Origin: Amphibalanus amphitrite
Taxonomy: Eukaryota > Arthropoda > Thecostraca > Balanomorpha > Balanidae
Direction: 5' to 3'
Assembly: GCF_019059575.1 (NCBI RefSeq)
Contig: NW_024881840.1
Span: 558,001 to 622,000 of the forward strand
Length of the DNA stretch: 64,000 nt
Shown here one piece after another: positions 2,804-63,008 of the stretch. Both the position numbers and the translations under genes were made by a program. A model generated the notes under the pieces. That model searched no databases, was not told where the DNA came from, and was given only the letters and a program-made list of their open reading frames with translations. Position 1 is the stretch's first letter, and each line of letters opens with the position of its first letter.

Positions 2804-4979
2804 ATGGATCCCAAACGGCTGGCTATGCGGGTAGCAAGCAGCCCAAAGTTCACGGGTAGTGGCCACGAAAACTGGGAAAAGTGGCTCTCACATTTTAACC
2901 CGCGCCCCACTGGGGGGGGCTATTTATAGCCCCCCTCCCGTTTTTCTGCAATAACTTCCAAACCGCTTGACGGATCGACGCCAAACTTTCAGTACCTTCG
3001 GCTGCATCAATTTGACACCTTGTGTCAAAATTTGAACTTCGTAGCTACCATAGGTCGGCCGGGAATTACGTCAGAGTGACGTCATGTTCGTCCGATTTCG
3101 ACGCAAAACATTGAACCACAGCAATCGCTCCCAAGAGCTCAGTTTTTAAGCTAGATCCAATTTCTTTGCATGAAAGAACTCAGAATTGACCGCGCTATCA
3201 AACTGCTATCTCGGATTTTCAAAATTTTGAAAATTTCGAAAATTTTATATAATAATATTCAAAATTTATATTTTTCTATTTTTTTCAAAAAGTTTTTGAT
3301 TTTTCGAAAAAACCGGAATATATGTGACAGAACGCATGATTATGACTAACTCTAGCAAGTTTTATCTAAATATCTTCAAAAATGGCCAAGTTATACGCAT
3401 TATTGCAAAAAATTCACAATTATTAATTTTTCAAATCAATTTTTCAGTACGTATTTGGCATCGTACACCAATATAAATGGCACCATCGTGTTCCTGAGCT
3501 CAAACTGCATCCAATAGACACCTTTTTTGTTGAAAAATTTCAACTTCAAAATTTGACCTTTTTTGACCTGAAAGTGACCTGACCTAAGCTAAATTCGACT
3601 CAAAATGACCTCGAATGACATAGACGACATCAAATTTGAAATCTATGGCCTAAATGGATCATAAAACATGTGTCACGTGACCGACGCATGATATAATATT
3701 TTCGTGACCTGTGATGACCTGACCCTGACCTGAAAATCAAAGTACAAGTTTGGTACCCTCAAGGTATCTAGAGCATCTGTTCACGAGTGTGGAAACCAAA
3801 AATGAGCCTGATCTGACTTGTAAGACGGCGGCCAGAGCCCAAAATGTGAACAAGCCAAAGTGCTAATAATTTTTACTTTGACCTGACCTGTGACGTCATC
3901 GGTGACCTCGAGGTCAATGAAATTAGGTTTCGCTCGACAGTTTTTCCGGGGCTATCAGACGCCGTTTGAATTTTGACGATCGGCCCAGTAGTTTCGGAGT
4001 TAGGAGGGGGGCTATGAATAGCCCCCCCCCCCCAGTAGGGCGTGTTATACACAGACCCCAGTGGGGCGCGGGTTAAGCTACGATTCCGCGATGTCGCGGA
4101 AGACGAACTCGCTACGGTTCTAGTAGACCTATTGGATGGTACAGCCCTCGATGTGTGTGCGAGGCTGGACAAAAAGGATCTGGCACACTACGACAGCATC
4201 ATAAAGGCTTTGCAGAGTAGGTTCGGGGAGGAGACAATCGCACTGCAGGCATACGCTGAGCTGAGCCAGGCGACTCAGAAGCCGGGGGAAAACGTTGAGG
4301 AATTTGGAGACAGAATTCTGGAGCTGGCGGGAAAGGCGTACCCAGGGACTACGATAAAACAAAAACAGGACAGCAGTTTAAAACAATTTATATGCGGTCT
4401 CGCTGACGGCAAACTACAGGAAAAGCTTGTCGCGAGGGATGATGTGAAGTCGCTTGAGGACGCAATCAAAGCAGTAAAAGCTATCGGACAAAGGCCGGCA
4501 TACTGGAGGCCATGCGGAATAAGACTGAGAGCGGAGTGGCCATGGCGGCACAGGGAACGCAAAGGCACTACCCCACACCCGAGGCTGCTCTTAATAAAGA
4601 GGCAGCTGCATCGATTGCCGAAATGAAAACCCAACTGGAGGGCATTCAAAAAGCAATCACGCAGCTGGAGTCCCGAGTTAACCAAGGTGCTACAAGGGAG
4701 CGTGACACCAGAGTTCAAAGAGGCTGTTTCCACTGCGGAGAGACCTCCCATTTCAAAAGACAATGTCCCCAACTCAGAAACAGGACACAGAGCAAGCAAC
4801 AGAGTGGTGATGGAGGCTTTGCGGCGGGGCAAGCACCAAGAGCACCGTTCTGTGTCGGCTGTGGGAGACATGGCCACTGGATGGCAGAGTGTTGGAGAGT
4901 TCCCTCGACTCCAGCCCAGCCGGGATTCCAGGCAGGAATCCAGGGAGGAAGGGGGGCTGAGAGACCGGGAAACGAGTAG
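2804..4979 (+). pseudogene. Retrotransposon gag, interrupted by a TTAA element
   Basis: Gag forms the particle and packages the element RNA. The first ATG is at 2804. The frame runs to 2898, is split by the element at 2895-4076, and resumes at 4077 in the same reading frame if one TTAA is counted. The middle part (LDGTALDVCARLDKKD..., GLADGKLQEKL) looks like a retrotransposon capsid. Near 4480-4505 the frame moves by one base. The final part (from about 4512) contains a predicted helical stretch and two CX2CX4HX4C zinc knuckles, starting CFHC and CVGC, before a TAG at 4977. The stop lies just after a -1 slippery heptamer, so Gag-Pol would be made by frameshifting. The copy cannot make an intact Gag as it stands. 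Confidence 0.85.
2895..4076. mobile_element. TTAA element, family A, inside gag
   Basis: TTAA is found on both sides (2895-2898 and 4073-4076). The ends are perfect 17-bp inverted repeats, CCCGCGCCCCACTGGGG. The left end carries the terminal word once and the right end twice, separated by a spacer with GTATAACACG. Subterminal G-tract/C-tract hairpins lie at about 2911-2939 and 4006-4033. The body has TGACCT/AGGTCA repeats and TGACGTCA and no credible ORF. Sister copies: 14777-15950 (inverted) and 50135-52205. Confidence 0.93.
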
Positions 4980-5008
4980 AGGCTGGTGCCAGGGGGCAGG
5001 CACCAGCC
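4967..5008 (+). promoter_or_regulatory. -1 ribosomal frameshift signal, gag to pol
   Basis: The heptamer GGGAAAC (4967-4973) is in the right phase for the gag frame (G GGA AAC). After a 7-nt spacer that holds the gag stop codon there is a perfect 10-bp stem: GGCTGGTGCC at 4981-4990 pairs with GGCACCAGCC at 4999-5008, with an 8-nt loop. Slipping back one base at 4973 enters the pol frame, which is open from there through the protease. Heptamer, spacer length and stem all match the standard -1 frameshift design. Confidence 0.88.
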
Positions 5009-8853: not shown

Positions 8854-8904
8854 GTTGGTTCTAAGGGGACTTTATTATTAAGGACACATCTGTGATTCCC
8901 AGAT

Positions 8905-10320: not shown

Positions 10321-10509
10321 GCCTCTGTCGCGCGGCGCCGCGACCCAGGGCGGGTCGGCGCCGGCCGGAGGAGGCAGTCGGGTGAGGGGCGCGACACGGG
10401 TCGGATCTGTTGCTGCAGTGTGAATGCAGTGGGTCGGATTCTGTTACTGTTACTCCAAATACGGCAGTGTGAATACAAGCCTAAAGAAGACACGGTCTCT
10501 GACCTAACA

Positions 10510-11244
10510 AAGGGAACAACCTCCGGCCAGATTTACACTAAATTGGAGATTGCTTCACATTGGTATAAATGCCGACTGACCTGACACACTGATGGATTGT
10601 TTTAGAATCATAACTGGCTGATTTGACATTGGCACAATGTCCGTTGACCTTTTCAAGGTTACTCAAGGTCAAGGTCAGGTCAGTGACCTCGGTTGACCTG
10701 TAATGACTTCTTGCACTTGTATGCCTTTTCGGGGTATTTTGATGCCCTGAAACCGAATTTGCTATCCATTTCAGGCATCGTCGGTTGTTTCTTGTAGTCC
10801 ATTTTGGGTCAGGGTCAGGTCAGTGACGTCACACGCCTGACGTGACCCAATGCACAAATGACCTTGCAGACTTCCGATGCTCCCAACGCATCATTTTTAG
10901 AGTTATGACATCGAAATACACACCGAACGATAGAGAAGTGATCAAGGATCACGATAGTGAAGGTTTCAAGTCGATATCTCTTACCGTTTTGCCGCAATTG
11001 GCGCGGAAATCTGAAAAAGTTAAATATTTCCGAAAATTTGACCTTTGACCGGTCATAAGTAGGTCAAATGTTGACCTAGGACCAAAAAATATACCACCAA
11101 TCGCGAGATCTCGTTGAGAGCAATCCGTTGGTCTTTTCCGCTAAGCTCTACGACGCTCCGTTTTCAAACGCCAGGGGGGGGGTCGCACCCCCCCCCCCCT
11201 GCATGGGCGAAGGTGGCAAAACACCGTTTACGGGCGAGGGTTAA
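10510..11244. mobile_element. TTAA element, family B1, left part missing
   Basis: The right end ...GGGCGAGGG-TTAA (TTAA 11241-11244) and its flanking hairpin match, inverted, the start of the copy at 21022. The body shares sequence with 42441-43391 as far left as about 10860. The left terminus is absent; the retrotransposon LTR ends at 10509, so the Ty3-type element probably inserted into this element. Confidence 0.75.
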
Positions 11245-14286: not shown

Positions 14287-14294
14287 GCGCGACT

Positions 14295-14616: not shown

Positions 14617-16757
14617 GGGTAAGGGCGGGTAAGAGTACGCGGGCGATAAGAGTTACGCATCAGCTGTTTCGGTTGCTTAGCAACGCGGGTTTGTCGAGTT
14701 CATGAAGTGACATGAAGCCGCCAGTACGTGCATGTCACCAACGGAACGTGGGCGTTGAGCGGCGACGCTGTTGAGTTTAACCCGCGCCCCACTGGGGTCT
14801 GTGTATAACACGCCCTACTGGGGGGGGGGGGGGGCTCCCCCCTCCTAACTCCGAAACTACTGGGCCGATCGTCAAAATTCAAACGGCGTCTGATAGCCCC
14901 GGAAAAACTGTCGAACGAAACCTAATTTCATTGACCTCGAGGTCACCGATGACGTCACAGGTCAGGTCAAAGTAAAAATTATTAGCACTTTGGCTTGTTC
15001 ACATTTTGGGCTCTGGCCGCCGTCTTACAAGTCAGATCAGGCTCATTTTTGGTTTCCACACTCGTGAACAGATGCTCTAGATACCTTGAGGGTACCGAAT
15101 TTGTACTTTGATTTTCAGGTCAGGGTCAGGTCATCACAGGTCACGAAAATATTATATCATGCGTTGGTCACGTGACACATGTTTTATGGTCCATTTAGGC
15201 CATATATTTCGAATTTGATGTCGTCTATGTCATTCGAGGTCATTTTGAGTCGAATTTAGCTTAGGTCAGGTCACTTTCAGGTCAAAAAAGGTCAAATTTT
15301 GAAGTTGAAATTTTTCAACAAAAAAGGTGTCTATTGGATGCAGTTTGAGCTCAGGAACACGATGGTGCCATTTATATTGGCGTACGATGCCAAATACGTA
15401 CTGAAAAATTGATTTGAAAAATTAATAATTGTGAATTTTTTGCAATAATGCGTATAACTTGGCCATTTTTGAAGATATTTAGCTAAAACTTGCTAGACTT
15501 AGTCATAATCATGCGTTCTGTCACATATATTCCGTTTTTTTCGAAAAATCAAAAACTTTTTGAAAAAATATAAAAATATAAATTTTGAATATTATTATGT
15601 AAAATTTTCGAAATTTTCAACATTTTGAAAATCCGAGATAGCAGTTTGATAGCGCGGTCAATTCTGAGTTCTTTCATGCAAAGAAATTGGATCTAGCTTA
15701 AAAACTGAGCTCTTGGGAGCGATTGCCGTGGTTCAATGTTTTGCGTCGAAATCGGACGAACATGACGTCACTCTGACGTCATTTCCGGCCGACCTATAGT
15801 AGCTACGAAGTTCAAATTTTGACACAAGGTGTCAAATTGATGCAGCCGAAGGTACTGAAAGTTTGGCGTCGATCCGTCAAGCGGTTTGGAAGTTATTGCA
15901 GAAAAACGGGAGGGGGGCTATAAATAGCCCCCCAGTGGGGCGCGGGTTAAGGCGATGAATATTATTTTCGAGCGTTATGATATTATTATGATATGGTACA
16001 ATAATTTTGATACTTGGCAGTTGAGATAACGTACATTTCCGTGATTGTTGTGGGAAACTTGTGAGGTTATCTGGGGAAATACTGTACAGTGCAATATTCT
16101 GTTTGCGAAGTTTTGCACAACGTTTCGGGGTTGTTTTGTGCGCGAATTGCATGTACGGTAAGAGGACGCACTGTTCAGGAGGGTAAGAGTACGCAGAATT
16201 ATACATTAAATCGAATATACAGAAATATAGAATTATTAATCTTTCGCTCAATGACGTTTGTTTTGTAGGTATATCATCAATGGAGCACTGTGATGCAGAT
16301 GCGTACCCGAAATTCTTCCAAATACGAGTTATTCTCCTTTTTGATCGTGCATTTTTTTAAGAAACACACGACATGATCATTTCCTGATTTATAGACTTGA
16401 AATATTTATTTTATGTTTTTCTTTTTGGATACTAGAATTAACTTAAACGCCTTCTGAGTTTGAAGTTAAGCATTTGGACAGTGCAAGCTGCATAGGTGTG
16501 TGTTCATATGCTTGCGTACTCCACCCGCCTGGCGTGCGTACTCTTACACACCCCATATGGTAAGAGTACGCAAGTGCAACGGTTCAGAAAATGTCAGTTT
16601 TAGACCACTTCCATTTACACTGAAGGATCGTTGCCCCATGGGTTGATGGCTAATTCAATGAACTTTAATATTCCCTATTTGCGATTTCTTTCCTTCAAAT
16701 ATTAAACAAATGAGAGCAAGAAATCCACTAAGTGCGTACTCTTATACGACTTCACCC
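14617..16757. mobile_element. TA-flanked element with GTAAGAGTACGC repeats
   Basis: Flanking TA is seen on both sides (14615-14616 and 16758-16759). The ends are imperfect inverted repeats, GGGTAAGGGCGGGTAAGAG and GGGTGAAGTCGTATAAGAG, both followed by TACGC. The word GTAAGAGTACGC or its complement recurs inside (about 16158-16190 and 16504-16575). The family A element 14777-15950 is nested in it. It is non-coding and the superfamily is unknown. Confidence 0.65.
14777..15950. mobile_element. TTAA element, family A, inverted copy
   Basis: TTAA at 14777-14780 and 15947-15950. Near identical by eye to the reverse complement of 2895-4076 over the whole length, including the CCCGCGCCCCACTGGGG ends. 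The double-word end is on the left here. Confidence 0.93.
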
Positions 16758-17207: not shown

Positions 17208-19094
17208 TTAACCCTATTAGTGGCAGGGGGGGGGGTTGTTTTCATCCACCCCTCAGGTTTTTCGGGAATATCTCCGAAACCGCTGAAGCTACGATGCTGA
17301 AATTTTCTGACTTTTCTTAAAACTAAATTGGGCACATTCCCTGAAAATTTCAAGTTCATAACTTTACCAGCGGCGGCTCCAGAGCACTGGGAATTGGGGG
17401 GTCCTATTCGTGAAGCGAGTCATTTGGGCGAAGATCACGATGCTGACTGTATGCACCAGTTTTACGAACAGTGAATGAGAGGTATCATGTGATAACATAT
17501 ACAAAGTTATTGTGCATCCTCTTTTGACAGGTTTTTGCTATAATAGGCGGATCCAGGCGTCCAAAAAGGGGGTTATGTTTTACCTCCCAACATAGGTGCC
17601 CTGACACCGCCTATGCATGACCAATACAATTGTAGTCGTTCTCTCATAAGAAAATTGTAACATAACAAGACCATTACCATCCTTTTTAGAAACAGTACCA
17701 ACAAAAACCTTATTTACTATACTTTTTGTGTACCCCCAATCTCAATGATCTGTATCCGCCTATGATTTTTGAAAATGCATATTTTTAGGATCCATGTGAA
17801 TTCCTGGTTCATTCTCTATCGATCGGCAAAAGTTGCGTTAACCCTATTCCTGGCGGGCTCCGCCGGGACAAGAAACTGGCGGGGGGGGGGCCGATTCGGC
17901 CCCCCCCCTGAGATCTCGAGAACGAAGCAAGATAGCGACAAGCGGTAAACGGCATCGGATACGCATGGACAAGGTCTACAATTTTTACTAAGGTCATTTT
18001 CAGGTCAGGTCAAAGATGACGTCACAGGGGTCGAAAAAGTCAAAATGGCGGCGCTAGATATGGAGAGAGTTTTTCTCGAATAACTTTCGAATTAGTCAAG
18101 ATAGGAACAAACTAAGGGCATCATCGTGATCCTCTCGTCAATCCGCATCGAATGATATATATGTTGACCTCGAAAGGTCAAGGTCAAAGGTTGACCTCAG
18201 GTCACGTGACCTCGAGGTCATCATGTATATCATTCGATGCGTCTTGACGAGCTGAACACAATGAGACCATCCACGCGTCTGTATCTTGTTCCTGTACGGA
18301 GTTATTGGCCAAAAACCTTTAGTGACCTTTGATGACGTCACATGACCTCACAGCTGCCCAACAGCAAAACAGACCTCAAGGTAGTGAAGGTTGATCGTAT
18401 ATGAAGTCATGTATGGTATATGGGGCCATTCCGACCCGTTTTAGTGGTAAAAACAGGGAGTTGATTTTTCCCCCATAGACTTATAATGGGGAGGTCGCGA
18501 AACTGACCTGACCTTAGGTCACCGATATCAAAATTCCGAGATATACAAATTGCACATACTGGTACCCTAACTAAGGCCTGAAGAGAAGAAATTGATCGGT
18601 CAAAAACTCTAGCTCTGGCGTGATTGCAAACTTTTCTGAGGTAGGGTCACCAAACCGCCTCTGGTGACCTGACCTGAGGTCAGATCAACTCAAAATTTTC
18701 AGACATGTTGCGTAGAAGCCTTTTAGGAAAAGTCAGAAAATTTGAGCTTCCTAGCTCAACGCGTTTGGGAGAAATAACCAAAAAACCTCAGGGGGGGGGG
18801 CTCCTGAGGCCCCCCCCCCGCCAGGAATAGGGTTAAGATTGGTTCAGAAACCTGGCCGTGATAAACAGTCTAAAATGTATCTGCAATTTGACCGTTTTTA
18901 CCCCCCTCTACCCCCCTATTGACATTTTTTAATGTTTATTTTTTAGAAATGTAGATCACGTTGAGCGAAATCGAATGCCGTTTGAAATTTGAAAATCGGC
19001 CCGTTAGATCTCGAGATATCAAGGGGGGGTCGTAAACAGCCCCCCCCCCTGCCACTAATAGGGGTAGCCAGGAGCCTGCCACTAATAGGGTTAA
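17208..19094. mobile_element. TTAA element, family C, with nested family D
   Basis: Starts TTAA-CCCTATTAGTGGCAGG, and ends with the inverted word twice (TGCCACTAATAGGG) before TTAA 19091-19094. Without the nested element it would be about 892 bp, matching the sister copy 51214-52101. It includes a hAT-like stretch. Confidence 0.92.
17838..18836. mobile_element. TTAA element, family D, nested in family C
   Basis: 999 bp between TTAA 17838-17841 and 18833-18836. Ends are CCCTATTCCTGGCGGG, with the word doubled on the left. The body matches the element at 57317-58324 inverted, although the termini there are different. The sister family C copy at 51831-51834 has a single TTAA and no insert. A 39-bp inverted repeat (18134-18172 and 18213-18251, about 35 of 39 paired) encloses AGGTCA repeats. 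Confidence 0.95.
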
Positions 19095-20862
19095 GTCAAA
19101 AGTTATTGCCAAAAAAAATGTTTTTCATAAAAACGGCTATTTTGGAGTTTTTGCCCTCTGGAGGCTAAGCCGTTGACCTGAGGTCAAATCTGAGAACATC
19201 ACTCAGAAAGGTCTGTAAAAGGGCTATCAAATGCGCTTTTCCGCGGCGCTGTAGCTCTATCGGTTCCCGAGATAGCCGTCGGCAGTTTCCAAAGTGTTGA
19301 AATAGTCAATATTTTTCCTTTGGTGATCTCTGGTGACCTGACCCAAAAAATGACCCGAGTGTTTTCGTCCTTATTTTGGACGTTCTTTCGATTGCCGCTT
19401 ACCGCGTGTCGCTACGTGACCCAGGAGCCGAGTTAGAAGATGGGGTGTTCAGACACCCCCCCCCCCCGACCCGGCGCGGAATCTCAGAGCACCGGCCCGG
19501 CGCAGGTTAAAATTTCAGACCCAGGTTTATCAAGCTCAGGTTACCAGGTCACGCCAAATGACTTCACCTCAGAAAAAAAATAGAACACTCGTCATAGCTA
19601 CACCGACTGAACGATTGCCTTGAAACTTTCAGCGATTGATTAGAGTAACAGTCTCTATATAAAACGTCTATCTCGGAATTTTGATATCGGTGACCTTAGG
19701 TCAGGTCAATTTTGCGGCCTCTCCATTATAAGTCAATGAAAGAAAATTGAAAAGCGTCTCTTCTGCACGAACGCCATTCTGGACTCTCTCAAACATCGGG
19801 ATGCAGGTAAGATTGACACAATGAACCGGAAAATGGCACCTGTGAACCCTCGTTTATCGTTATGTCCCCGAGGTCATCTCAAGTCACGAATAGTATCTAA
19901 CAGTTTTTCGCTAATAACTTCTGATAGAGGCACGCTACAGCGATGAAAACACCTTAGATGTGTTCGGCTCGACGATGCGGATCGACTGATATGCAGCATG
20001 ACCTTTTCCGGTCAGGTCATAACCTTGGCCTGAGGTCAAATTTTTTAGCTGACCTTTTAATTAACCCTCGCCCGCACATGCCATTTTCCCATCCTAGAAC
20101 GCAAAGGGGGGGGGGGTGCCACCCCCGCGCCATTTCGTTCCTGTTGGAGATAGAGCTTCGCGGTAAAGACCAAAAAGATTCTTTGGGAAGAGACGAATCC
20201 AATGATACCCAGTTTTACCTTCTCAGGTCAGTCATTGACCTTCCAGGTCAGGTCAAACTAAAAAATGTTGCTGTTTTGGGTCACCGTTTGATATCAAGTG
20301 CGCTGCTTATCATATACCGATGACGATGCCGTTTTCTGGTGCCAAGCCAGCTAGAACCTCTTTCTCACACTACCCGACCAGGTTTTTGCTGCTGAGGTCA
20401 TTTCAGGTCAAGTTAGGTCAAGGTCAATTATATGTGTTTGTATGTCTGTGTGTGTCTGTGTGTATACTGATGTGTGCATCGATTGTTTATGCGTCCTTAT
20501 TACATGAAACCATGATCTGAGAAGCTTTTACCAAAAATGCAGTCAAAAAAGTTCACGAAAAGTTAATTCAGCTTGCTTAAAACGCAATTATTTTCGATGA
20601 CCTAGGTTGACCTTGACCCTGACCTTGACATCTGTATATCGTCGAACAACATGTTCCATGATAGGTGGGAGGTAAGACTGGCAAAAAAGGCCGAAATCTA
20701 GGTGTCAAAAGCTCACAAGGCCCATAGCCAACGCAAGATGTTGAGAATTGGTCATTTGGGTCATGACATGACCTGAAAAACAAGGTCATATCTCCGAAAC
20801 CAAAAACCACAGAAACTTGAAGTTTTCAGTGGACATCAAGAAAGGATAGAGGAGCAGCTATA

Positions 20863-22871
20863 GGGGAAGCCGGGGGAAGCCCGGGCGCGGGGGAAGCCCG
20901 GCCACCCCGTTTCCGGCTAAATTATTCACAATAAAATGTTCAACTGTTTGTCCTTTCAGCGTGGCAGCAGGTAACGCCAGCAAAAAAGTTAACGTTAAGG
21001 CTAACAAAAATTGCATATTGTTAACCCTCGCCCGTAAACGGCGATCTGCCACCTTCGCCCATGCAGGGGGGGGGGGGGGGTTGGTGCGACCCCCCCCTTG
21101 GCGTTTGAAAACGGAGCGTCGTAGAGCTTAGCGGAAAAGACCAACGGATTGCTCTCGCCGAGATCTCGCGATTGGTGGTATATTTTTTGGTCCTAGGTCA
21201 ACATTTGACCTACTTTTGACCGGTCAAAGGTCAAATTTTCGGAAAAAATAGACTTTTTCAACTTTCCGCGGCGATTGCGGCAAAACGGTCGGAGATATCG
21301 ACTTGAAACCTTCACTATCGTGTTCCTTGATCAATTCTCTATCGTTTGGTATGTATTTCGTTTCCCTAGCTCTAAAAATGGCGGGTTGGGAGCGCCGGAA
21401 GTCGGCAAGGTCACAGTCGGCGGCAGAAATTCGAAAAATCAAAATTTAAATTTTTGAAATCTGATTGTATTTTTGGATTTGAGAGGTCCATTTGCTCCCT
21501 ATGGAAGCTAATATTGCTGCATATTCCCATTGAGGTGACAAGAATTAGCAAAATAGTGGTTCGGGCGCTTTTCAAAAATAGTACCGGACGCTGTTCCTCT
21601 TGTGACGTCATAGCTCCGTGACCTGACCTGACCCGGTCAGGTTTCTTATACCATATAATAGCCAATACTTGCCCCAACATGCATGGGAAGTTTCATCACG
21701 ATCCATCAACCGATGTCCGTACCACCGGCAGGAAACCTCGGGCGTTGGCACTCAGTTTGTGAAAATCCGGCCGGAGGCTGTTCCCTTTGTGACGTCATAA
21801 CTCCGTGACCTGACATGACCCGGTCAATTTTTTTTTATCAAAAGATGCGCAAGGTTTGCCCCATAAGGTAGCCAAAATTTGGCGGCGCTGCGCGCCGCCG
21901 TTTTCGTTTCTTACTCATTATGCTACCGTTTGTCTGGCCAATTCGGTCAAGTAATCTTCAGCATGTCTTTGCATAAGTGTGCTGCCTATTTGAAATTTAT
22001 ACGGCACGTTGAAAAGTTATGGGCCTGCAAATGAAAGTATGGCAGGCTGGGGTAATGCCGAAAACGTGCGATTACGCACGTGTTAAAAGCACGCTACGTG
22101 GACTTTACTGCTGTAGAATAGCAACGCGTATTTTTAGTCACACAAATTACACTTTCAACCGACACAACGGCCTGTTACCTATAAGGAATGATTTACCTGG
22201 CATGTTCTTATTATATCACACAATTATAACTTCCAGTGTGCACCGCGTCCTCAAGCTCTTAAAACGCGTGTCAGCTTTGATCAATTCTGGATAAAGTTTG
22301 AGATAAAATGGCAAAACATCAATGTCGGCATTCCCCGTAGATCATTTCTCCCATTTTCGGCTTTCCCCGCAGTCCGGGGCAACGCCGAAAAAGTCACTTC
22401 TTTGATATTTTTAGTTTGTGCGCTTAACGGTATGCGAATTCATCAAATGCGCCTGGTATGTTTGAAAGGCAAAAGACTGGCCTCTCGAATGACGCCAACA
22501 AGAATAGCTTATGTTGTCTACCTTGCGTGCTACGGACGTCAGAAAAAAAGTATTCGGCGTTCCCCCAACTTCCCCTAATATTTCACTTTCCGTTAATATT
22601 TGGAAGACACATAATGGTTTCATCAACTCGTTGTAAAGCGCTGGGGAGGTGGCCGGCGTTTCCCCTATGCCGGGCTTACCCCCAAAAAATCAACACTTTT
22701 TTAAAACTCGATTTTCTCAACCTTATACTCATTCCACGAAACCGAATTTTTTGGGAAAACACAACCAATGAACTTAGCTAGCTAACAGGATATCAACATT
22801 TTATACAGCACGTATGGTATGTAATAAAAATGAAAAAGAGCTTACTATGCCGGGCTTCCCCCGGCTTCCCC
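20863..22871. mobile_element. TA-flanked transposon with GGGGAAGCCGGG ends
   Basis: A perfect 22-bp terminal inverted repeat starts GGGGAAGCCGGGGG. The host dinucleotide TA is on both sides (20861-20862 and 22872-22873). The uninterrupted site is present once as TA at 45451-45452 in the sister B2 copy, proving the insertion and the duplication. No transposase is visible. A truncated B1 element lies inside. Confidence 0.92.
21022..21890. mobile_element. TTAA element, family B1, right end missing
   Basis: Starts TTAA-CCCTCGCCCGTAAACGG with the G-tract hairpin. The body is nearly identical to 42441-43391 until about 21880, after which the TA-flanked host element resumes. The right terminus is lost, so the end is approximate. 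Confidence 0.78.
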
Positions 22872-43800: not shown

Positions 43801-46800
43801 GCACAGGATCTGTCCGTCTGCCGGTGGATCGACGCGTTGTATCAGATAGCCCACACCATTCCACTGGCAGGGACAAGTCAAGAGGGACGAGACGGGATGG
43901 GACAAAGTGCGACAGAGCCAGAGGGGACGGGGGGACGGGCAGGGACGGGAGTAGACAGACGGGGAGGAGACTGCGATGTCGCATCACCGTCTATCCCTGA
44001 CAGCGTTGCTGGGGGTCGCCCATTGCGACAGACACGTTATAGCATAGGGCTTGGCCGCCCGGGCCGGTTCCTGCTGTTGCTCAAGCCGGCTTTATACGAG
44101 TAGGGAAAGGGAAATGAATACAAATTGATGGTCAGTGAGTGTAAAGTGTCAAGATGCCCACGCCGAGTCAGTGTTCCGCTGGGTAGTTGATGATGCCCAC
44201 CGTCAGGCAGAGTTGCTAATCACTAGGCTCGAGAGCATCATCAGCCGCGGGCTATGAACGTTCGAACGCCGTAAAACGTGGTCTGTATACATACAGGACG
44301 CGTGTCCTAGCGGACAGTGATGGTCATGAATGTAAGCTTTATAAGCGGGCGTTGACAGGTACTGACGTCCATTCCAAAGAATATACCCGGAGCATCCGTC
44401 TTCGTTTCATCGTTCATTTGCCATCGCAGAGCGTGAATGGCTGCTCATTATGATAATAGCAGAGGTGTGCAATGTGCATCATCAACGTGAGATGTAAGGC
44501 CAGTGATGTGCCTCTTGCGCCATGATTCGGCTCGGGTACGGCGTCCATACACTGCCGTGCGGCAGTCCTCGGAATACCAATGGACCGGTCTAATTATGAT
44601 GAGACTTTAGCCATACGGGAGTGCACGAATTGCGTGTTTTATTAACCCTCGCCCGCACATGCCATTTTCCCATCCTAGAACGCACATGGGGGGGGGGGGG
44701 TGGTTGCCACCCCCCCGCGCCATTTCGTTCCTGTTGGAGATAGAGCTTAGCAGTAAAGACAAAAAAGATTCTTTGGGAAGAGACGAATCCAATGATACCC
44801 AGTTTTACCTTCTCAGGTCAGTCATTGACCTTCCAGGTCAGGTCAAACTAAAAAATGTTGCTGTTTTGGGTCACCGTTGGATATCAAGTGCGCTGCTTAT
44901 CAAATACCGATGACGATGCTGTTTTCTGGTGCCAAGCCAGCTAGAACCTCTTTGTCACACTATCCGACCAGAATTTTGCTGCTGAGGTCATTTCAGGTCA
45001 AGTTAGGTCAAGGTCAATTATATGTGTTTGTATGTCTGTGTGTGTCTGTGTGTATACTGATGTGTGCACCGATTGTTTTTGGGTCCATATCACATGAAAT
45101 CATGATCTGAGAAGCTTTTACCAAAAATGCAGTCAAAAAACTTCACAAAAAGTAAATTCAGCTTGCCTAAAACGCAATTATCTTAGATGACCTAGGTTGA
45201 CCTTGACCCTGACCTTGACCCCTGTACATCGTCGAACAACATGTTCCATGATAGGTGGGAGGTAAGACTGGCAAAAAAGGCCGAAATCAGGGTGTCAAAA
45301 GCTCACAAGGCCCATGGCAAACGCAAGATGTTGAGAATTGGCCATTTGGGTCATGACATGACCTGAAAAACAAGGTCATATCTCCGAAACCAAAAATCAC
45401 AGAAACTTGAAATTTTCAGTGGACATCAAGAATGGATAGACGAGCAGCTATACGAAAAATCAGCCTTCTAGCTCTAAAAATGTTGAGTGCAGAGCAGAAA
45501 GACTGCCTGGGGGGGGGGGGGTGGCAACCACCCCCCCCCCCCATGTGCGGGCGAGGGTTAACTGACGTAGATCAACACCCTGCCCAAAACTCATCACCGG
45601 CTTTGGAACTTTCTTCCCTTCTCCTTTCACTATATCTGTTGCCTAGCCCCCGCGTTATATATTAAATGTCCAACAAAAGTTTAGCCTTGACATAAACAAG
45701 ATCTGTCCTCTAACTTAATTTCCACCCGACCGATAAGTTCAGCTCGTGTGGCACCCCATCACCGCACGGTCAACAATACCCCGTAATCCCGTGCGCGCTC
45801 CTCACGCAGCTCCCAGAACCTGTACCTGCTGCCGGCATCTGGCTGACCCCGCCGCCCGTCTCCGTACTGCAGGTGCGAGGGAAGGCCGTACGGCTACTAC
45901 GCCGACGAGGCCAACGACTGCAGCATCTTCCACATCTGCCAGCCCGTGGACGTCTCCAGCGTCAGCAAGTTCTACACTCGTTACAGGTTTGTCAATGTGG
46001 GCAAAACGCTCACAAGATTCAGGCAAACCGCAAAATTAATAATAAATTAATGATAGGAAGCCCTACCGGGTAGGTATTGCAATGTGTCCATGGCCGGTAC
46101 CTGACCGAGACAGAAATACGGACCAAAATATGGAAAAGAATCCAGTTGTGCACCTGACAAAGGAATGTCTATCTGAACCGCAACATTCTGGAATTCCTAT
46201 TAGCCATGGCCCATATTTTTCCGATGCTCTGATATGTATATTCTGTGGAGGAGAAGCGATTGATGTCAAAGTTTCCAAGCCCAAGACCAGCAAACCAGCA
46301 AAGAAGCTAGTGGTTTTATTGTAATTCAATTGAAATGCCTGATGACTAGACCTTCCAGCAGATTTTGCATCCATCATGTCATCTCCCAGCATTACCATGT
46401 GCGATGTGCAAGTAGGTAAATCATGCTGCAAGGACAGTAATGGCGTGGTGCGTCTGCCCAGCGGCGATTCCCACGCATAGGCCTGCTCACGGTCACGTGT
46501 ATAATTATGCGGTGCGCTATTGAGTACGCATCGAGCAAACGTCCAATTATCTCCCTTGCGCCGCCGGACTTTTCCTTTCACGTCGTACCGTCACAGCAAG
46601 ATGATTTGTTTCACATGGAGTTGGCTCCTCACCTGCCGTTTTCACTCTTCATGGAGCATAGCCGTGGCGGCAGCATGAAAAACCCACTTGCGGTGGATAT
46701 TCTTTCCCAGGGCTGACGGTCTTCCCTGCCGCTGCTCGCTGGCAGAGAGCGCTATTCTGCAGCGCTGTTGTCTGGCCAAACCACGACCCACCGAGCCGGC

Positions 46801-50134: not shown

Positions 50135-51213
50135 TTAACCCGCGCCCCGCTGGGCTATTCAGCCATACGCGCCCTGATGGGGGGGGGCAGATTCTGCCCC
50201 CCCCCGTCTAACTTCCGAACCGATGGTCGTAGAAAGACGAGGAAAACGGCAATCGAATGCTGTCAACAAGACGGATCTTAAGAGCCCAAATTTGTTTGCT
50301 TAAGTAGGTCAGAGGTCAGGTCAAGGTCAGGTCAAGGGTACAATATGCAAGTTTCTACAGTACATACCTATCGGCCTTGCACCGTAGTTGCCGAGGAGTG
50401 GACTGAGAGTGATTGCCCAAAACGTGTTCTTAGACTACCAAGACAATATTCGTTGCATACAATGTCATTCAAAGGTCAAGGTCAAGGTCAGGTCAGGTCA
50501 GGTCACCAAAAACAATATAGAAAAGGGCATGTGCGACACATGTTTTATGGGTCATTTTACTCATAGAATTCATTAGGCACACTCAATAAGTGATATGGAC
50601 CACTTCTGGATGAATTTCAGGTCAAGGTCAGGTCAAGGTCAGGTCAAGTGAGGTCAAATTTTCAAGTTGATTGTTAAGGCCTAAAAAGGTGTCTATCTGA
50701 TGCAGTTTTTTACGGCGAATCGAATGGTGTTATTTTTGTTTCCGTACAAGGTCTAGAACTTCAAAAAAAAAACACATTAAAAAAATTGTGTGTCGTGACG
50801 TTATGAAATTTTGAATAACTCCCACATTTTTGAACCGATTCTTCTAAAAATTGGTATGTAGGTGCACATAGACCACTTCTCTGACATATATTCTGTTTTT
50901 TTTCGATACACTCAAAATTTTGGATTTTATAATTATTTTCCCAAAAAAGTCAGTTTTTTTGAAGAAAAAAAAATGGGCCAAAATCCAAGATTTTCAAAAA
51001 ACCGAGATAGCTATTTGATGGACAACGTAGAATCACGTATAACGGTTTTTGTTACGTCTTGATTCCTTTAAAAATGAAGATGTTGGCGGCGTTTGAAATT
51101 TTGCCGTTTTTTAGGCGAAAATGGCGAACATGACGTCACTAAAACGTCAATTTCTCAAAAAATTCCGACGGATTTCGCTCAAATTTTCAGGGAACGTGTC
51201 AAATTGATGTATA

Positions 51214-52101
51214 TTAACCCTATTAGTGGCAGGGGGGTTGTTTTTATCCACCCCTCAGGTTTTTCGGGAATATCTCCGAAACCACTGAAGCTACGATGCT
51301 GAAATTTTCTGACTTTTACTAAAACTAAATTGGGCACATTCCCTGAAAATTTCAAGTTCATAACTTAACCAGGGGCGGCTCCAGAGCACTGGGAATTGGG
51401 GGGTCCTATTCGTGAAGCGAGTCATTTGGGCGAAGATCACGATGCTGCACCAGTTTTACGGACAGTGAATGAAAGGTATTATGTGATAACATATACAGTT
51501 ATTGTGCATCCTCTTTTGACACGTTTTTGCTATAATAGGCGGATCCAGGCGTCCAAAAAGGGGGGTTATGTTTTACCTCCCAACATAGGTGCCCTGACAC
51601 CGCCTATGCATGACCAATACAATTATAGTCGTTCTCTCATAAGAAAATTGTAACATAACAAGACCATTACCACCCTTTTTAGAAACAGTACCAACAAAAA
51701 CCTTATTTACTATACTTTTTGTGTACCCCCAATCTCAATGATCTGTATCCGCCTATGATTTTTGAAAATGCATATTTTTAGGATCCATGTGAATTCCTGG
51801 TTCATTCTTTATCGATCGGCAAAAGTTGCGTTAAGATTGGTTCAGAAACCTGGCCGTGATAAACAGTCTAAAATGTATCTGCAATTTGCCCGTTTTTACC
51901 CCCCTCTACCCCCCCCCTATTGACATTTTTTAATTTTCATTTTTTAGAAATGTAGATCACGTTGAGCGAAATCGAATGCCGTTTGAATTTTGAAAATCGG
52001 CCCGTTAGATCTCGAGATATCAAGGGGGGGGGTCGTAAACAGCCCCCCCCCCCCCTGCCACTAATAGGGGGTAGCCAGGAGCCTGCCACTAATAGGGTTA
52101 A
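51214..52101. mobile_element. TTAA element, family C, without the nested D element
   Basis: TTAA at 51214-51217 and 52098-52101. The word TATTAGTGGCAGG is single on the left and doubled on the right. Nearly identical to 17208-19094, but with a single uninterrupted TTAA at 51831-51834. Confidence 0.94.
51370..51757. mobile_element. hAT-like stretch within family C
   Basis: CAGGGGCGGCTCC at the left and CCGCCTATG at the right resemble hAT termini. No 8-bp duplication is seen. The same stretch is in both family C copies, so it was part of the element before they spread. Confidence 0.35.
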
Positions 52102-52215
52102 GGTACTGAAAGTTTGACGTCACTGGCGTAACGCGTTTAGAAGTTATTGGCGAAAAACGGGAGGGGGCAGATTCTGCCCCCCCCCCCCAGCGGGGCGCGG
52201 GTTATAAGCCCTGGT

Positions 52216-53251
52216 TTAACCCTCGCCGGCCGAGGGGGGGGCGGGTGCCGCCCCCCCATAGGGTTTTTTCGCGATAGCTCCGAACACGCTGGCGATAGAG
52301 AGCTGAAACTTGGCATACCTGACCTTTGATCCAAGCCGCATCTTTTGACACCAACTGCATTTTTGGGTCAGGTCAGGTCACTGACCTATGACGTCATAAG
52401 TGAACCTCTGCACGGTCTTCAGATGTCGCAACTTCGCAACGCCCTCACTTCCAGATGAGATGTCACAGGGAAATGAAACTTGCAGGATCTAGTATCCATT
52501 ATGAGTCCCACAACTTGTATATCTCGGATTTTTCCTAAAGGTCATATGAGGTCAGGTCATTTTCGTGACCTCACCATTATAAGTCAACGGGGAAAAATGA
52601 AAACTGCTATTCTGGCGCCGGGAACGATCTCCAACTATCTCAAGCACACATAATCGTGATTTTATGCACTCCTTGCAAGGTTAGATGCGTCACTTTTGCA
52701 ATGTTGACCTTGCGTGACGTCATTTATGACGTCATCAAGGTCATATTAGTTTTTCGTCAATAACTCTTGATCAAATTGAGCTAGCGAGTCGGGAAAGCCA
52801 CCAATGGACTCAGGAAGACCTGCCGAATCGAATGATATGCGACATGACCTCTTTCGACCAGCTTCGTGACCTGGGGTGCTGACCTGACCTTGACCTGAGG
52901 TCAACACCCCAAGTTGACCTGACCCGGACAAAAAGTATATCATTCGACGCGCCTGAGCGAGACGAACACGATGCTGCCAAAATCGGCGCTCTGCGGCCGT
53001 TTTTTGCGAAGTTATTCGCCAAAAACTGAACCGTACCTTGGGGCACTTGACCTGACCTCAGAGGTCACCGGTTGACCTAGGACCTTAAAATCGGGTACCA
53101 ATCTCTGCGTCTCGTAACGGCGCACACGCTCGTTTTTTCCGCGACGCGCTAGCTCCACCAGGGGCGAAACGGCGAGGGGGGGTCGTACCCGCCCCCCCCC
53201 CCCCCTCGGCCGGCGCGTATGTAGAAAACCAATAGGTCCGGCGAGGGTTAA
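52216..53251. mobile_element. TTAA element, family I
   Basis: TTAA at 52216-52219 and 53248-53251. Left word CGCCGGCCGAGG single; right side doubled (CGCCGGCCGAGG and CGCCGGACC). It contains CCATTATAAGTCAACGG and the ATATCATTCGACGCG arm. No second copy in the window. Confidence 0.9.
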
Positions 53252-54779: not shown

Positions 54780-55676
54780 TTAACCCTCGCATGTGTAGGG
54801 GGGGGGGGTCGGATGGACCCCCCCCCCATGGTTTTTCGCGAATAACTCGCGTAAAAAGCGGCCGATCGCGACGAAACTTTCAGTACCCTCGTATTGATCA
54901 ATTTTACACCTACCCTGAAAATTTCATGACCCTGACCCAAATGACCTTTGACCTGTGACCTCTTTTCCGAGACCATGTTTGGCCGGAATCGCGATTTCGC
55001 GTATGTCGGCTCGCACTAGCCGCGTGTTTGCAAGCTTTTCGTGGTTTCAAACGTTCAAACATGTGATTTGATGTTACTCCCGTGTGTGTCAAGGTCACCT
55101 GAAGGTCAGGTCAGGTCATTGACCTTTGGTGACCTCGGGTGACCTCGGGTCACTTTTTCGAGTTTTACATGTTTCTAGGCTAGTTTTTGGAGCTGAATTC
55201 GAATTTAGCAACCATTTGAACATTTACGAAGTAGTTTTGGTGACTTCGTAACATGTTACGAAGCTGTCAGAGGCGGTTGACACGTACTACGAATACCCGT
55301 CACGACGCCTACTGGTTGACCTGACCTGACCTGACCCGACCTGGTCTAAATGCTTCAAGACATCATCTGTGATCAAAACTAACACGATATTCGTGATCAG
55401 CACCCCGAAAAACCCCTTAGCAGCCACACTTTACGACTTTCTAACAGGTCCCGATTTTCCCGACTTTGGGTCATTGACCTGACCTGGAAGGTCAACCAAT
55501 GACCTAGGACCTTAAAATTGGGTATCATCGGCTTCCTCTCGTCACGGGCAACACGCTCGTTTTTTCCGCGAAGCTCTAGCTCGATCAGGGGCCAAACGGC
55601 AAGGGGGGGTCCAACCGACCCCCCCCCCCCCCTACACATTAGAAGCTGGCAAACGCCGCACACATGCGAGGGTTAA
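54780..55676. mobile_element. TTAA element, B3 body, word ATGTGTAGG
   Basis: TTAA at 54780-54783 and 55673-55676. Left end CCCTCGCATGTGTAGG single; right end has GCATGTGTGC and AATGTGTAGG. The body is nearly identical, inverted, to 26394-27287, but the termini are different. Palindrome AGGTCATTGACCT at 55113-55125. Confidence 0.93.
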
Positions 55677-57316: not shown

Positions 57317-58324
57317 TTAACCCGCGCACCGACGGGGGGGGGCGGATATCCGCCCCCCCCTGAGGTTTTTCGCGGATAGCGGGAAAACCGCGGCGCGTAG
57401 CGCCGCGAAATTTGGTATGACTATTCTCTCATCAATTTTACACATGGTGTGCAAGTTTGAACCTCCTAACTTTTAAGGTCAGGTCACCAGGTCACTTTGA
57501 ATGACCCAACCTCAAGTCACTTTTTTGCAACTTTGTCACCGTGCCAGAGCTACAGTAGATGTCGGAGGCCTTTGAAAGTCGCAGGATGTTATTAGGTCAT
57601 TAGTAGCTACAATTTGTATATCTCGGAATTTTGATGTCGGTGACCTAAGGTCAGGTCAATTTCGCGACCTCCCCATTATAAGTCAATGGGGGAAAAATCA
57701 ACTCCCTGTTTTTACCACTAAAACGGGTCGGAATGGCTCCATATACCATACATGACTTCACATACGATCAACCTTCACTACCTTGAGGTCTGTTTTGCTG
57801 TTGGCCAGCTGTAAGGTCATGTGACGTCATCAAAGGTCACCAAAGGTTTTTTGCCAATAACTCCTTACAGGAACAAGATACAGCCGTGCGGATGGTCTCA
57901 TTGTGTTCAGCTCGTCAAGACGCATCGAATGATATACATGATGACCTCGAGGTCACGTGACCTGAGGTCAACCTTTGACCTTGACCTTTCGAGGTCAACA
58001 TATATATCATTCGATGCGGATTGACGAGAGGATCACGATGATGCCCTTAGTTTGTTCCTATCTTGACTACTTCGAAAGTTATTCGAGAAAAACCCTCTCC
58101 ATATCTAGCGCCGCCATTTTGACTTTTTCGACCCCTGTGACGTCATCTTTGACCTGACCTGAAAATGACCTTAGTAAAAATTGTAGACCTTGTCCGTGCG
58201 TATCCGATGCCGTTTACCGCTTGTCGCTATCTTGCTTCGTTCTCGAGATCTCAGGGGGGGCGGTCATCCGCCCCCCCCCCGTCGGTACTAAGTTGGCGCA
58301 GACCCCCGTCGGTGCGCGGGTTAA
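57317..58324. mobile_element. TTAA element, D body, word ACCGACGGG
   Basis: TTAA at 57317-57320 and 58321-58324. Left word CACCGACGGGG single; right side doubled. The body matches 17838-18836 inverted, including the central inverted repeat, but the termini and loops differ. Confidence 0.93.
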
Positions 58325-58338
58325 GCTTAAATTGTACT

Positions 58339-59553
58339 TTAACCCGCGCCCCAGTGGCGGTCACGGCCAACTTCGCCCTAGTGGGGGGAGGGGGCATATG
58401 TTACACCACCCACCTCTAACTCAAAAACTAAGAGGGCTAGAAAGACGTGGTAAAAAGCAGTCGATAGCTCTCAATGCGTACGTTTGAATGTATATAGTCT
58501 TTTTTTATCTTAGAGCAATATTGAGGTCACTGGAGGTCATCTAAGGTCAAAAGTTGCCAAATGTCATTATATCTTTTTAGAATAGGTACATGCAGTTATC
58601 TCAGGAACTATGATAGCTAGAGAAGCGCATGGAAAAGCAATCGATAGCTTTTGAACTCTTCTTTTGATAAGGTCGACATTAAAATTGACCTCAGGTCAAC
58701 GGTTAAGCCTCCATAGGTCAAATATTGTGAAAATAGCTGTTTTTTGATAAAACATTTTTACGAATAACTTTTGAACCAGCAAAGACAAAGAACTGGCAAT
58801 GGCACTATCGTGTTTCTCTTCTTCAGCCGCTTCGAAACATATCTTTTTTACCTGGAAAGGTCAAGGTCAAATTTTGACCTCAGGTCAAGGTCACGTGGTG
58901 ACCCAAATAGGTCATGTTGCCTTTCATTCGATGCGTCTCGGCAAGACAAACACAATGAAGCCATCCCCAGCGTTTTATCTCTTTCCAATCGGGAGTCATT
59001 GGCAAAAATATGTTGGTAGCCTCAAATGACCTCGGATGACCTTTCTAGAGGCTATCAGCAAAAAAAGAAACCTTGGTCGTCACGGGTGGTCCAGCTCCAG
59101 ATCGTTGTGATTCGGAAAATTTTGGACTGTTCCTATGCGTACACACGGATCTAGAGGCATTTTCATTTTTCTCCATTGACTTATAATGGAAAGGTCACGC
59201 CAGTGTCCTGACCTTAGGTCACGAATATAAAAAATCCGAGATTTACAAATTATAGGTGCCCATACCATCATGGAACACAGTAAGTTTAAAACCTCTCTTA
59301 CAAGTTACAAACACTGCAGGCTGGACAATGGACATGATTGCAAACTTCTTTAGGCTTGGTCAGTTAATTTGATCTGGTGACCTGACCTAACATGACCTGG
59401 GGTCAACAATTTCACACATTGTCCAAAATTGATGCACAGAAAGATACTCCAGGCGGCGCGGCGCTACGCGCCGCGGTATTTTATTCACACGCAAAAAACT
59501 GGACAGGGTGGTAACATATGCCCCCCCCCCCCCCCACCTGGGGCAAAGGTTAA
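58339..59553. mobile_element. TTAA element, family G
   Basis: TTAA at 58339-58342 and 59550-59553. Left word CGCCCCAGTGG, repeated as CGCCCTAGTGG before the G-tract; right end single. The body matches 23976-25162 inverted. Confidence 0.92.
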
Positions 59554-59792: not shown

Positions 59793-61014
59793 ACTAACCC
59801 GCGACCTGGTGGGGGGTGGCTATTTTTTGCCCCCCCCCCCCCTCCAGACTTTTCGATATATCTCCAGAGTCCAGAACCGCTGCGCAGATCGTCACCAAAC
59901 TTTCAGTACCCTCCCGGACATCAATTTTACACATTGTGACCAAAATTTTTTTCCAAAGGCTATGATAGGTTGGCCGGAAATGACGTCAGAGTGACGTCAT
60001 GTTCTGCCGTTTTCGACCAAAAAAAGGGTTTCGCGAGAAGAGCTGTCAGGCCTATAGCTTTGCAAATACAGAAAAATGATAAAGACATAAAAGGTGTAGA
60101 ATCAACAGGGCTATAAAACTGCCATCTCGGATTTGTGAAATTGTTGGATTTTGACCCCCAAAAATCAAAAATAAATTTTTTGGATATAATAATCGAAAAA
60201 TCCAAAACGTTTCTTGAATTTCGCAAAAACCGGAATATATGTGATAGTACTTACCGCCTTCCATCCACATACCAAATTTGAGATTGATACCTCTTTTTTG
60301 GCGATGTTATAGCGAAAAAAACTGCTCAAAATTGATGACGTCAAATTTTCAAACTCAATTTTTAGCAATTCTAGACCCCGTAGCGCAAAACAAAGACCAC
60401 CATTAGACTCCCCGTGACGAGCTGCATCGAATCAATACCCATTTTATGCAAAACTATCAACTTTAAAATTTGACCTTTTTTGGCCTGACCTTGACCTGAA
60501 CTTGACCTGAACTTCACCAGAAGGTGGCCTAAGCCGTACCTGATAGTCTTATAACCAACACCATTGAGTTGGAAATGAAAAATTGGCCATAAAACATGCA
60601 TCACACAACCTTAGTAAAGTTGGGCTCATGTGACCTGACCTGTGACCCTTGGTGACCTGACCTGTGACCTGACCTGGTATTGTCAGTGACCTCTAATAGC
60701 AACATATCTACTAGGCAACTGACGCCCTATCGCTGATTCTCGACAAAATGCGTTTTCCTCGGTGTTATAGCGCATTCCCTAGAAGACCCGTGAACGGTGA
60801 AACATTTCATCTTTGACCTGACCTGTGACGTCATCGGTGACCCCGAGGTCAATGAAATTTGGTTCCCTTCGTCAAATTTGACAGGCCTTTCGAACGCCGT
60901 TTGAACTTTGCGGATCCGTCTAGTAGTTTCGGAGATACGAGGGGGAGGGAATAGCCCCCCCCCCCACCAGGTCGCGTTATAAACAGACCCCACGGCGCGG
61001 GCTATAAACCAAAA
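59793..61014. mobile_element. TTAA-type element, family A relative, eroded ends
   Basis: Left CTAA-CCCGCGACCTGGTGG and right ...CGCGGGC-TATAA, so target sequences are eroded or atypical. It has G-tract hairpins at both ends. The left body resembles family A; the right body matches the fragment at 26100-27392. Confidence 0.8.
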
Positions 61015-62065
61015 TGAGGCAAAGCATGCAATACCTGTGCACTGTGCAGCGTGCAGCTCTCTGCCGTCTTCATCATACATCTTTGAAAGAATGTGACATG
61101 TTGGCACGATGTTCCAGTCCATTAAATGCACTCCTGTACCAATATCTCGTGTAGAGATGGGTAACCATGGGTAGAAACTCTACCCATGGGTCAACAAAGC
61201 GTACCAGTGGAGGTTATCATCACTACCTACCTTTATTTTATTGTTTTGGTGCTTTTATTGATAAATGTGCATTTGCATGTTGAGATGTTATACCTGAAGA
61301 TGGAACAACAAATAGCACAAAGGGAAGTAGGTCTCCGAAATCTCTATTTGAAATTAAACTTTCACTGGCATGTCTATCATGCATCGCTGAAGCATCTAGA
61401 AGTAATAAAATGCGCCTCAGGCTCTCTCACTCAGAAAAATATGCGCCGTGTCTAAGATACCCAATATTCAACATCCCGCGTTTGCAGCGCATGTCAAGAT
61501 TCGCAGCTGCCGCGCCAGGCACCAGCTGGTACGAAGTCGTCTGAGTGACGCGTGACGCAGCTTCTGACGTGGCCCGGAGAGGCCTGCTCTCCTTAGGGAT
61601 CAGTGGCCCGGAGAGGCCGCTCTTGGAGGGATCAGTCCAAACCAGCTCGTAGTAGAGCCGCCCACACACTCCACAGCCCAGCTCCCACCCCATCCCAGCG
61701 GTTACCGCCTCACCTCACCGACCGCTGGGAGTTTTACAGGCCATTGCAGTCAAAGGACGATTTAAATCGGTGTGGTTGCTTTTTCTGGTCTAAACTTCCC
61801 ACTGGCTTATGGCTGGCGCACCACAGCCACCCTATTGCCACTGGGTCAGTAGGTTTGGCCGCGGGCTGCTCCAACCCGTCGTGTGAAATAACGGTAGCTC
61901 GCGTAATTTTGTCGGCCGATATCCCACTGGACCGGGCGCGGCTCGGGGACGCGATGTTGAAACGTCACCTCCTGTCGGCGGGTCACATTGAAGACAAGGT
62001 CGGGGGCGGCAGGTGTGACGTGGTGACGTGGTGACGCACTATAACTAGCCACTCAGCACTGGGTG
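61015..62065. other. No gene recognised
   Basis: Contains a perfect small hairpin at 61165-61189 (CCATGGGTAGA, loop AAC, TCTACCCATGG). Short frames without recognisable motifs. Confidence 0.5.
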
Positions 62066-63008
62066 TTAGCCCTAGAACGCCTAGGGGGGGGGGTGTATCA
62101 ACCCCCCCCCCCCCTGAGGTTTTTTCGAAGTGCACGCTAAACGGCTTGTCGTAGCGGGCTGAAATTTTCAATACCCTCTGGGGCAGCCTTTGCGCATCTT
62201 TTGCCGAAAAAAAAATTGATCGGGTCATGTCAGGTCACGGAGTTATGACGTCATAAGAGGTACAGCCTCCGGCCGACAGTTACCAAACGTGTGCGCCGAA
62301 TCCCTAGGTTTTCTGCCGGTGATACCCACATTGTTTGATGGATCATGATGAAACTTCCCATGCATGTTGGGGCAAGCATTGGCTATCGTGTGGTGCAAGA
62401 AAATTGACCGGGTCAGGTCAGGTCACGGAGTTATGACGTCATAAGAGGTACAGCCTCCGGCCGGATTTTCACGAAGTGTGTACCGAGTCCCGAGGTTTTC
62501 GTTTGCTGTGAATTGATTGTTGGAAGTTGGAAATACACTTTTCTGAGTCGTTACCTACAGTATTTATAGCGGAGCAGTGGTCAACAGCCGACGAATCGGG
62601 ACAAACACCGGAGGGTGATGTGACACCATATCACTCATCAGCAATAGGCCTCTTACTTTTATAGGGTAAATACACCAAAAACACCATATATGATGCAGAA
62701 TTGAGTGGGGAATACGTTGTTGAAGGTTTGAAGTTAATATCTCTCACCGTTTTGCCGCAATCGTTGCGCAAAGTTGAAAAAGTTTGATTTTTTCGGAAAA
62801 TTTGACCTTTGACCGGTCATAAGTAGGTCAAATGTTGACCTAGGACCAAAAAATATACCACCAATCGCGAGATCTCGTTGAGAGCAATCCGTTGGTTTTT
62901 TCCGCTAAGCTCTACGACCTTCCGTTTCGAAACGCCAGGGGGGGTCGTAACAACCCCCCCCCCTGGTCGTTCGTGTTATGAGAAATGGCCTGGTCGTGCG
63001 AGGGTTAG
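62066..63008. mobile_element. TTAA-type element flanked by TTAG, B1 body
   Basis: TTAG, not TTAA, is found on both sides (62066-62069 and 63005-63008). Left CCCTAGAACGCCTAGG; right end with the word ACGACCAGG twice, inverted. Same family and termini as 42441-43391, inverted. Confidence 0.9.

Follow-up and report, generated by a model that had tools for sequence, protein, structure and literature searches.

The closest described system is the T. ni piggyBac transposon, whose end anatomy is already known. Its transposase core holds bp 7 to 16 of the end, where the dimerization and DNA-binding domain (DDBD) makes the contacts, and a dimer of its CRD binds a palindrome at bp 17 to 33 (PMC7351741). 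Bp 34 to 63 of the right end (RE) are nearly identical to bp 7 to 35 of the left end (LE), so that the motif is duplicated at one end only, which the same paper terms a puzzling arrangement. The role of the duplicated motif has been tested in T. ni piggyBac and its mutants: transposition fell by about half when the second motif was randomized or when 5 bp were added, and integration in vitro was better with a shortened RE than with RE63 (PMC7351741). In piggyBat, for which a tetramer is described (PMC11707139, PMC13405395), an inner site restricts activity (PMC11707139). We treat the asymmetric T. ni type of ends as a feature of T. ni piggyBac and not of the whole superfamily.

The window, a 64,000-nucleotide stretch of DNA from Amphibalanus amphitrite, looks eukaryotic. 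Pfam identifies in it a GDSL esterase open reading frame (ORF), a ubiquitin hydrolase domain, a reverse transcriptase of the LINE type, and a Gypsy-like element represented by a protease of retroviral type, a reverse transcriptase and an integrase domain. An Rfam scan of the window at gathering scores gave no matches.

We collected transposon ends in the window by reading inward from each exact TTAACC and GGTTAA. Two kinds of end were found, which we call S and D. An S end reads, in order, TTAA, a CCC tip, a 9-nt word, a G tract, a loop and a C tract. A D end reads TTAA, a CCC tip, the word, a spacer of about 18 nt, the word again, and then the G tract, loop and C tract. The word lies at bp 8 to 16 from the tip and is present once at an S end and twice at a D end, and the G tract and C tract form a palindrome that stands behind the S word and behind the inner D word. 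Self-BLAST, inspection of the sequence and an inexact-match search for ends allowed us to pair these ends into 20 elements, several of them nested, leaving five further D ends and two S-like ends (near 25562 and 28216) without a partner. The elements and single D ends are as follows.

E1, 2895..4076, plus strand: S end at 2895 and D end at 4076; word CCCACTGGG; sits in the Gypsy gag region
E2, 14777..15950, minus strand: member of the E1 family (98.5%)
E3, 17208..19094, plus strand: word AGTGGCAGG; E4 nested within it
E4, 17838..18836, minus strand: word CCTGGCGGG; its unoccupied site is seen in E5
E5, 51214..52101, plus strand: member of the E3 family; nested within E20
E6, 20061..22974, minus strand: decayed copy of the E14 family; interruption of about 2 kb that includes the D end at 21021
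E7, 23316..25533, minus strand: word CCTGGCAGG; E8 nested within it
E8, 23977..25162, plus strand: member of the E17 family; degenerate S tip, first base uncertain
E9, 26384..27287, minus strand: word CGGCACAGG; interior 93 to 96% identical to that of E10
E10, 54780..55676, plus strand: word ATGTGTAGG; interior as in E9, words and loops different
E11, 30561..31747, plus strand: word GGGCCCGGG
E12, 35963..37151, minus strand: member of the E11 family (94.8%)
E13, 42441..43391, minus strand: D words ACGACCAGG, S word ACGCCTAGG
E14, 44642..45561, minus strand: word CCGCACATG
E15, 52216..53251, plus strand: word CGGCCGAGG; outer D copy diverged
E16, 57317..58324, plus strand: word ACCGACGGG; D-side interior 98% identical to that of E4
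E17, 58339..59553, minus strand: S word CCCAGGTGG, outer D word CCCAGTGGC
E18, 62066..63008, plus strand: member of the E13 family; both flanks read TTAG instead of TTAA
E19, 59794..61005, plus strand: old element with diverged words; offset 23
E20, 50135..52205, minus strand: word CCCGCTGGG; E5 nested within it
D end alone, 11135..11244, minus strand: outer word CCGTAAACG and inner word CCATGCAGG, discordant
D end alone, 21021..21130, plus strand: 11244 family, with the same discordance; D-side interior 95% identical to that of E13
D end alone, 19401..19510, minus strand: outer word CGGGCCGGT
D end alone, 23210..23319, minus strand: 19510 family; shares a TTAA with E7
D end alone, 27283..27392, minus strand: outer word GGCGGTGGG

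Apart from E6, and without their nested inserts, the elements are 0.89 to 1.2 kb long. Among the paired elements the tip was CCC at all 20 D ends and at 18 of the 20 S ends, the other two S ends reading CCT. Intact TTAA was present on both sides of 15 elements; in the remaining five it was altered at one flank or at both. The site of E4, which lies inside E3, could be read unoccupied in the sister element E5, where 83 of 84 letters were identical and a single TTAA was present. E1 lies in the gag region of the Gypsy-like element, and one of the three frames was open across its single-TTAA join, with its only stop upstream of an ATG. Insertion of these elements is TTAA-specific.

Agreement among the three words was assessed in 14 nonredundant families (the redundant copies E2, E5, E6, E8, E12 and E18 were dropped) by permuting the families 20,000 times, with the inner word taken as the best-matching place further in. 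The S word matched the outer D word of its own element at a mean of 7.86 of 9 letters (4.30 after permutation) and the inner D word at 8.07 (5.94 after permutation), and the two D words matched each other at 7.57 (5.80 after permutation); none of the 20,000 permutations reached any of these values. When we restricted the comparison to the seven families with a CCCTCGC tip at one or both ends, six permutations reached the observed value for the outer word and four for the inner word, which is close to the floor, seven families allowing only 5,040 orders. Besides the words, to which the original prediction had drawn attention, the palindrome loops covary: the S and D loops of one element matched in a way that no permutation of the 14 families equaled (0/20,000), and an element's own D loop ranked first in eight families, second in four, third in E7 and fifth in E19.

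The distance between the D words was nearly constant, with a start-to-start offset of 26 to 28 bp in 13 of the 14 families (23 in E19), against 56 of 182 cross-family best matches. Four of the dropped copies (E2, E5, E12 and E18) fell within this range as well; the offset was 31 in E8, and the inner D word of E6 had five tied places. The spacer is therefore shorter than the 20 to 30 bp that had been claimed for it. The prediction of a family-specific word, with a single copy at one end and two at the opposite end, held beyond permutation, and all of the ends that it quoted are present in the sequence. Exact agreement at three sites was found in five of the nine elements quoted with a word (17208, 51214, 26384, 44642 and 57317). 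Three others were near-exact, the inner copy being one letter off in those at 2895 and 14777 and the outer D copy reading ATGTGTGCG in that at 54780. The element at 42441 carries its word twice at the D end, but its S end reads ACGCCTAGG, which matches at seven of nine letters. The end at 50135, whose word had been called diverged, has a partner end at 52205.

Departures from agreement were also seen. In E13 and E18 the S word agreed with the D word at only seven of nine letters, the outer D copy had diverged in E10 and E15, and the outer and inner words were discordant in both copies of the D-only family at 11244 and 21021. Given this family, E13/E18 and the offset of 31 in E8, perfect word agreement is not strictly required. 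Most pairs of elements of the same family had identical or nearly identical words. Across eight such pairs the words were no better conserved than the spacers (14 of 198 versus 10 of 144 sites changed), and these changes may represent decay after insertion.

Both ends of T. ni piggyBac are printed in PMC3078864, with which the parts given in PMC2533014 and PMC1939997 agree. When we scored the printed ends in the same way, the two tip words matched at 8 of 9 letters, at bp 8 to 16 of both ends, and the inner copy matched at 8 of 9 at an offset of 27, before the palindrome; the palindromes lay at bp 17 to 33 (LE) and 45 to 61. A second motif of the T. ni type is thus present here, at 26 to 28 bp in 13 of 14 families versus 27 in piggyBac, and the layout of the window ends is identical to that of the published ones. 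The suggestion in the original prediction that the word is recognized is supported by this comparison, since its position at bp 8 to 16, its copy numbers, the 27-bp offset and the palindrome coincide with the motifs bound by the piggyBac transposase. Covariation of the sites is a known property of the terminal inverted repeats (TIRs) of cut-and-paste transposons, combined with the known piggyBac duplication.

We consider it probable, at roughly 85%, that the elements are nonautonomous piggyBac-type cut-and-paste transposons in which the word is the core site, the palindrome is the CRD site and the matching is kept by selection. The word would be gripped by the transposase core, and the palindrome behind it would bind a dimer of the C-terminal zinc domain (CRD). 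An S end would then present one word-plus-palindrome unit at the tip, and a D end a tip site with another such unit lying 27 bp inward of it, where a second, noncatalytic dimer may assist in pairing the ends, as in the published piggyBac model (PMC7351741). Each family would carry the word recognized by its own transposase, and copies would tend to match because an element with mismatched ends would spread poorly; several piggyBac-like transposases with different specificities would have served the elements of the window. The CRD assignment is looser than that of the word, since the center of the S-end palindrome varied from bp 24 to 34 among the 14 families, moving with the length of the G tract. 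None of the 10 ORFs scanned with Pfam (of 135 listed) held a transposase, and we therefore infer the enzyme; those scanned within elements were 31202-31666, 24373-24801 and 36068-36511, with 37003-37530 overlapping the end of E12.

Relatives were also sought by pattern. The pattern TTAACCCTCGC-gap-G9 gave no matches in viral contigs, and its K variant gave a single match in genome contigs, in Hymenobacter, which we took as chance. An internal GGTCA motif had no matches in viral contigs, and the T. ni piggyBac tip pattern had four there. Among the matches listed for literature on piggyBac ends and miniature inverted-repeat transposable elements (MITEs), no title or opening of an abstract mentioned covariation of a duplicated motif across families.

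In several cases the ends and the interiors of these elements come apart. We compared the 200 bp just inside the palindromes and relied only on pairs with at least 83% identity; identities of about 70% were discarded, since the 99th percentile for random 200-mers is 0.73. The interiors of E9 and E10 were 93% identical on the S side and 96% on the D side (828 of 885 aligned letters overall), and the identity picked up directly behind the palindromes. Their words had only four of nine letters in common at the S end and two of nine at the outer D position, and their loops and D spacers differed, while the S tip CCCTCGC and the G tract were unchanged. Between E4 and E16, identity was 98% for the D-side interior and 83% for the S-side interior, but the tip and spacer differed and six of nine word letters were shared. 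The D-side interiors of E13/E18 and the 11244/21021 family were 90 to 95% identical, with four of nine word letters in common. The coordinated change of sites that had been proposed is supported for the close relatives E9 and E10 and, less cleanly, for E4 and E16. Close relatives with such different words suggest an exchange of paired ends: an interior would have come to carry another end pair in E9/E10 at least, and probably elsewhere too.

How a new end pair would arise on an old interior can be read in more than one way. We tentatively suggest that paired end cassettes may be exchangeable modules and that, through template switching in the G and C tracts during gap repair after excision, an interior no longer moved by one transposase may gain the full matched S and D set of another, to be relaunched by successive transposases with new word specificities. 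Ectopic conversion between elements, or fast change in place, would be other routes. The last of these could dispense with exchange altogether: selection favoring a new transposase specificity would have acted on point mutations and small indels at the ends, altering words and loops quickly against a slowly drifting interior. We regard that account as doubtful; it draws on the S tip and G tract that E9 and E10 have kept while word and loop differ, and on the failure of the D spacers to sort cleanly into donor types. The spacers grouped as E7/E13/E14 and E8/E16/E17/11244/21021, with E10 more weakly joined to 11244 and 21021, and the scores of E13 with E7 (13) and E14 (8) and of 11244 with E8 (8) speak against change in place, as does the finding that neither E9 and E10 nor E13 and 11244 had D spacers resembling each other above the 99% null. 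E9 scored 5 with 11244, as high as with members of its supposed own type (4 with E14 and 2 with E13). The first two of these scores led us to drop a four-combination proof of recombination from two donor types of D spacer, and the spacers alone do not prove recombination. Ordinary descent of the TIRs, each family having inherited one end set with neither coordinated change nor end exchange, seems unlikely as a general account. A TIR is by definition common to both ends, and the identity or near-identity of words in most same-family pairs is in its favor, but E9/E10, E4/E16 and E13/E18 versus 11244/21021 combine closely related interiors with the different words given above. Those three sets speak against it for the link between end and interior; for the remaining families, descent of this kind may be the right account.

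Templated copying, which had been offered as an alternative to recognition, would be conversion between the inverted ends of an element, with one site serving as template for the word at the remaining two. It would yield three agreeing words and matching loops, but we think it very improbable, and it is not needed. With E14 as the reference, the S word and the inner D word of the decayed copy E6 had changed differently and the outer D word was unchanged, so that differing changes had gone uncorrected and no homogenization in place was seen. The outer D copies of E10 and E15 were likewise uncorrected, and E13/E18 and 11244/21021, with two copies each, remain discordant. The flanks on the inner side of the outer D copy differ from those of the other copies, so copying would also need to stop short of anything beyond the tip and word. 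Copying between sites in place is unlikely because decayed copies change site by site. An origin as Kolobok-type elements, which also target TTAA, can be set aside almost entirely: the termini reported for Kolobok are 5'-RR...YY-3' (PMC9587614) and the tips of Xenopus Kolobok are AG (PMC6004289), unlike the CCC and CCT tips of the window.

With the piggyBac-type reading preferred, the inner D copy, mostly matched and at a constant distance, is consistent with the inner dimer proposed for piggyBac (PMC7351741) and with the piggyBat tetramer (PMC11707139, PMC13405395). The role of that copy has another reading, given the better performance of the shortened RE in vitro (PMC7351741) and the restrictive inner site of piggyBat (PMC11707139). 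The 14 natural families, with a second copy mostly matched at the 27-bp offset, support a functional inner site on evolutionary grounds, and their word specificities form a set to be matched to transposases. If ends and interiors have indeed been exchanged, this would bear on the origin of MITE families.

Among other known systems, the CMITEs of Acropora corals are piggyBac-type MITEs that target TTAA and whose interiors are more conserved between families than their TIRs (PMC2872659), a trait shared here by E9/E10 and, on the D side, by E4/E16 and E13 versus 21021. They differ in being about 100 bp long, against 0.89 to 1.2 kb in the window, and no three-site word layout was seen in the text of PMC2872659. 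Of the terminal motif CC[C/T]T given there for the piggyBac superfamily, the first three bases agree with the CCC and CCT tips of the window, and the fourth base is G in several families. The piggyBat element of Myotis lucifugus resembles the window elements in having asymmetric ends with a short core-bound motif at bp 11 to 16 followed by a palindrome, repeated at one end. Unlike them, it is described with three motif-palindrome units in 44-bp steps at its LE and with only truncated motifs, lacking a palindrome, at its RE. T. ni piggyBac itself differs in being autonomous, with a 594-amino-acid transposase, in the letters of its word, and in its palindrome, which is AT centered (TGCGT...ACGCA) rather than a G-tract/C-tract hairpin and has its center at bp 25 rather than at bp 24 to 34 as at the window S ends. 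With the LE35 and RE63 ends of piggyBac the elements nonetheless share the TTAA target, the CCC tip, the word at bp 8 to 16 of both ends, the second word at an offset of 27 at one end only, and the palindrome behind the innermost word.

In the family formed by E3 (17208-19094) and E5 (51214-52101), two of the paired piggyBac-type non-autonomous transposons, the inner copy at the D end, which is the end carrying the word twice, repeats both the tip and the word (CCCTATTAGTGGCAG). This D end looks as if it were the product of a whole second end being added. S-like ends, resembling the single-word end, lie near 25562 (+) and 28216 (−), and no D partner was recognized for either; the interiors adjoining them are about 70% similar to each other.

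The ORF at 9194-9976 (+), which encodes a GDSL esterase domain, sits between the Gypsy pol ORF and a putative 3′ LTR and is possibly an accessory gene of this retrotransposon. Judged by eye, the putative LTR, near 10400-10508, is similar to 2166-2275. A (TGAAC)5 run at 2149-2173, 3′ of the LINE-type ORF, is perhaps the 3′ tail of the latter. The open frame at 32218-35436 (+; 1,072 codons) appeared Ser/Thr-rich by eye, and a Pfam search found no match to it.

TGACCT/AGGTCA half-sites are numerous within several element interiors (e.g., 24606-24700, 57606-57696, and 50600-50768), in both direct and palindromic arrangements. These half-sites resemble nuclear-receptor elements.
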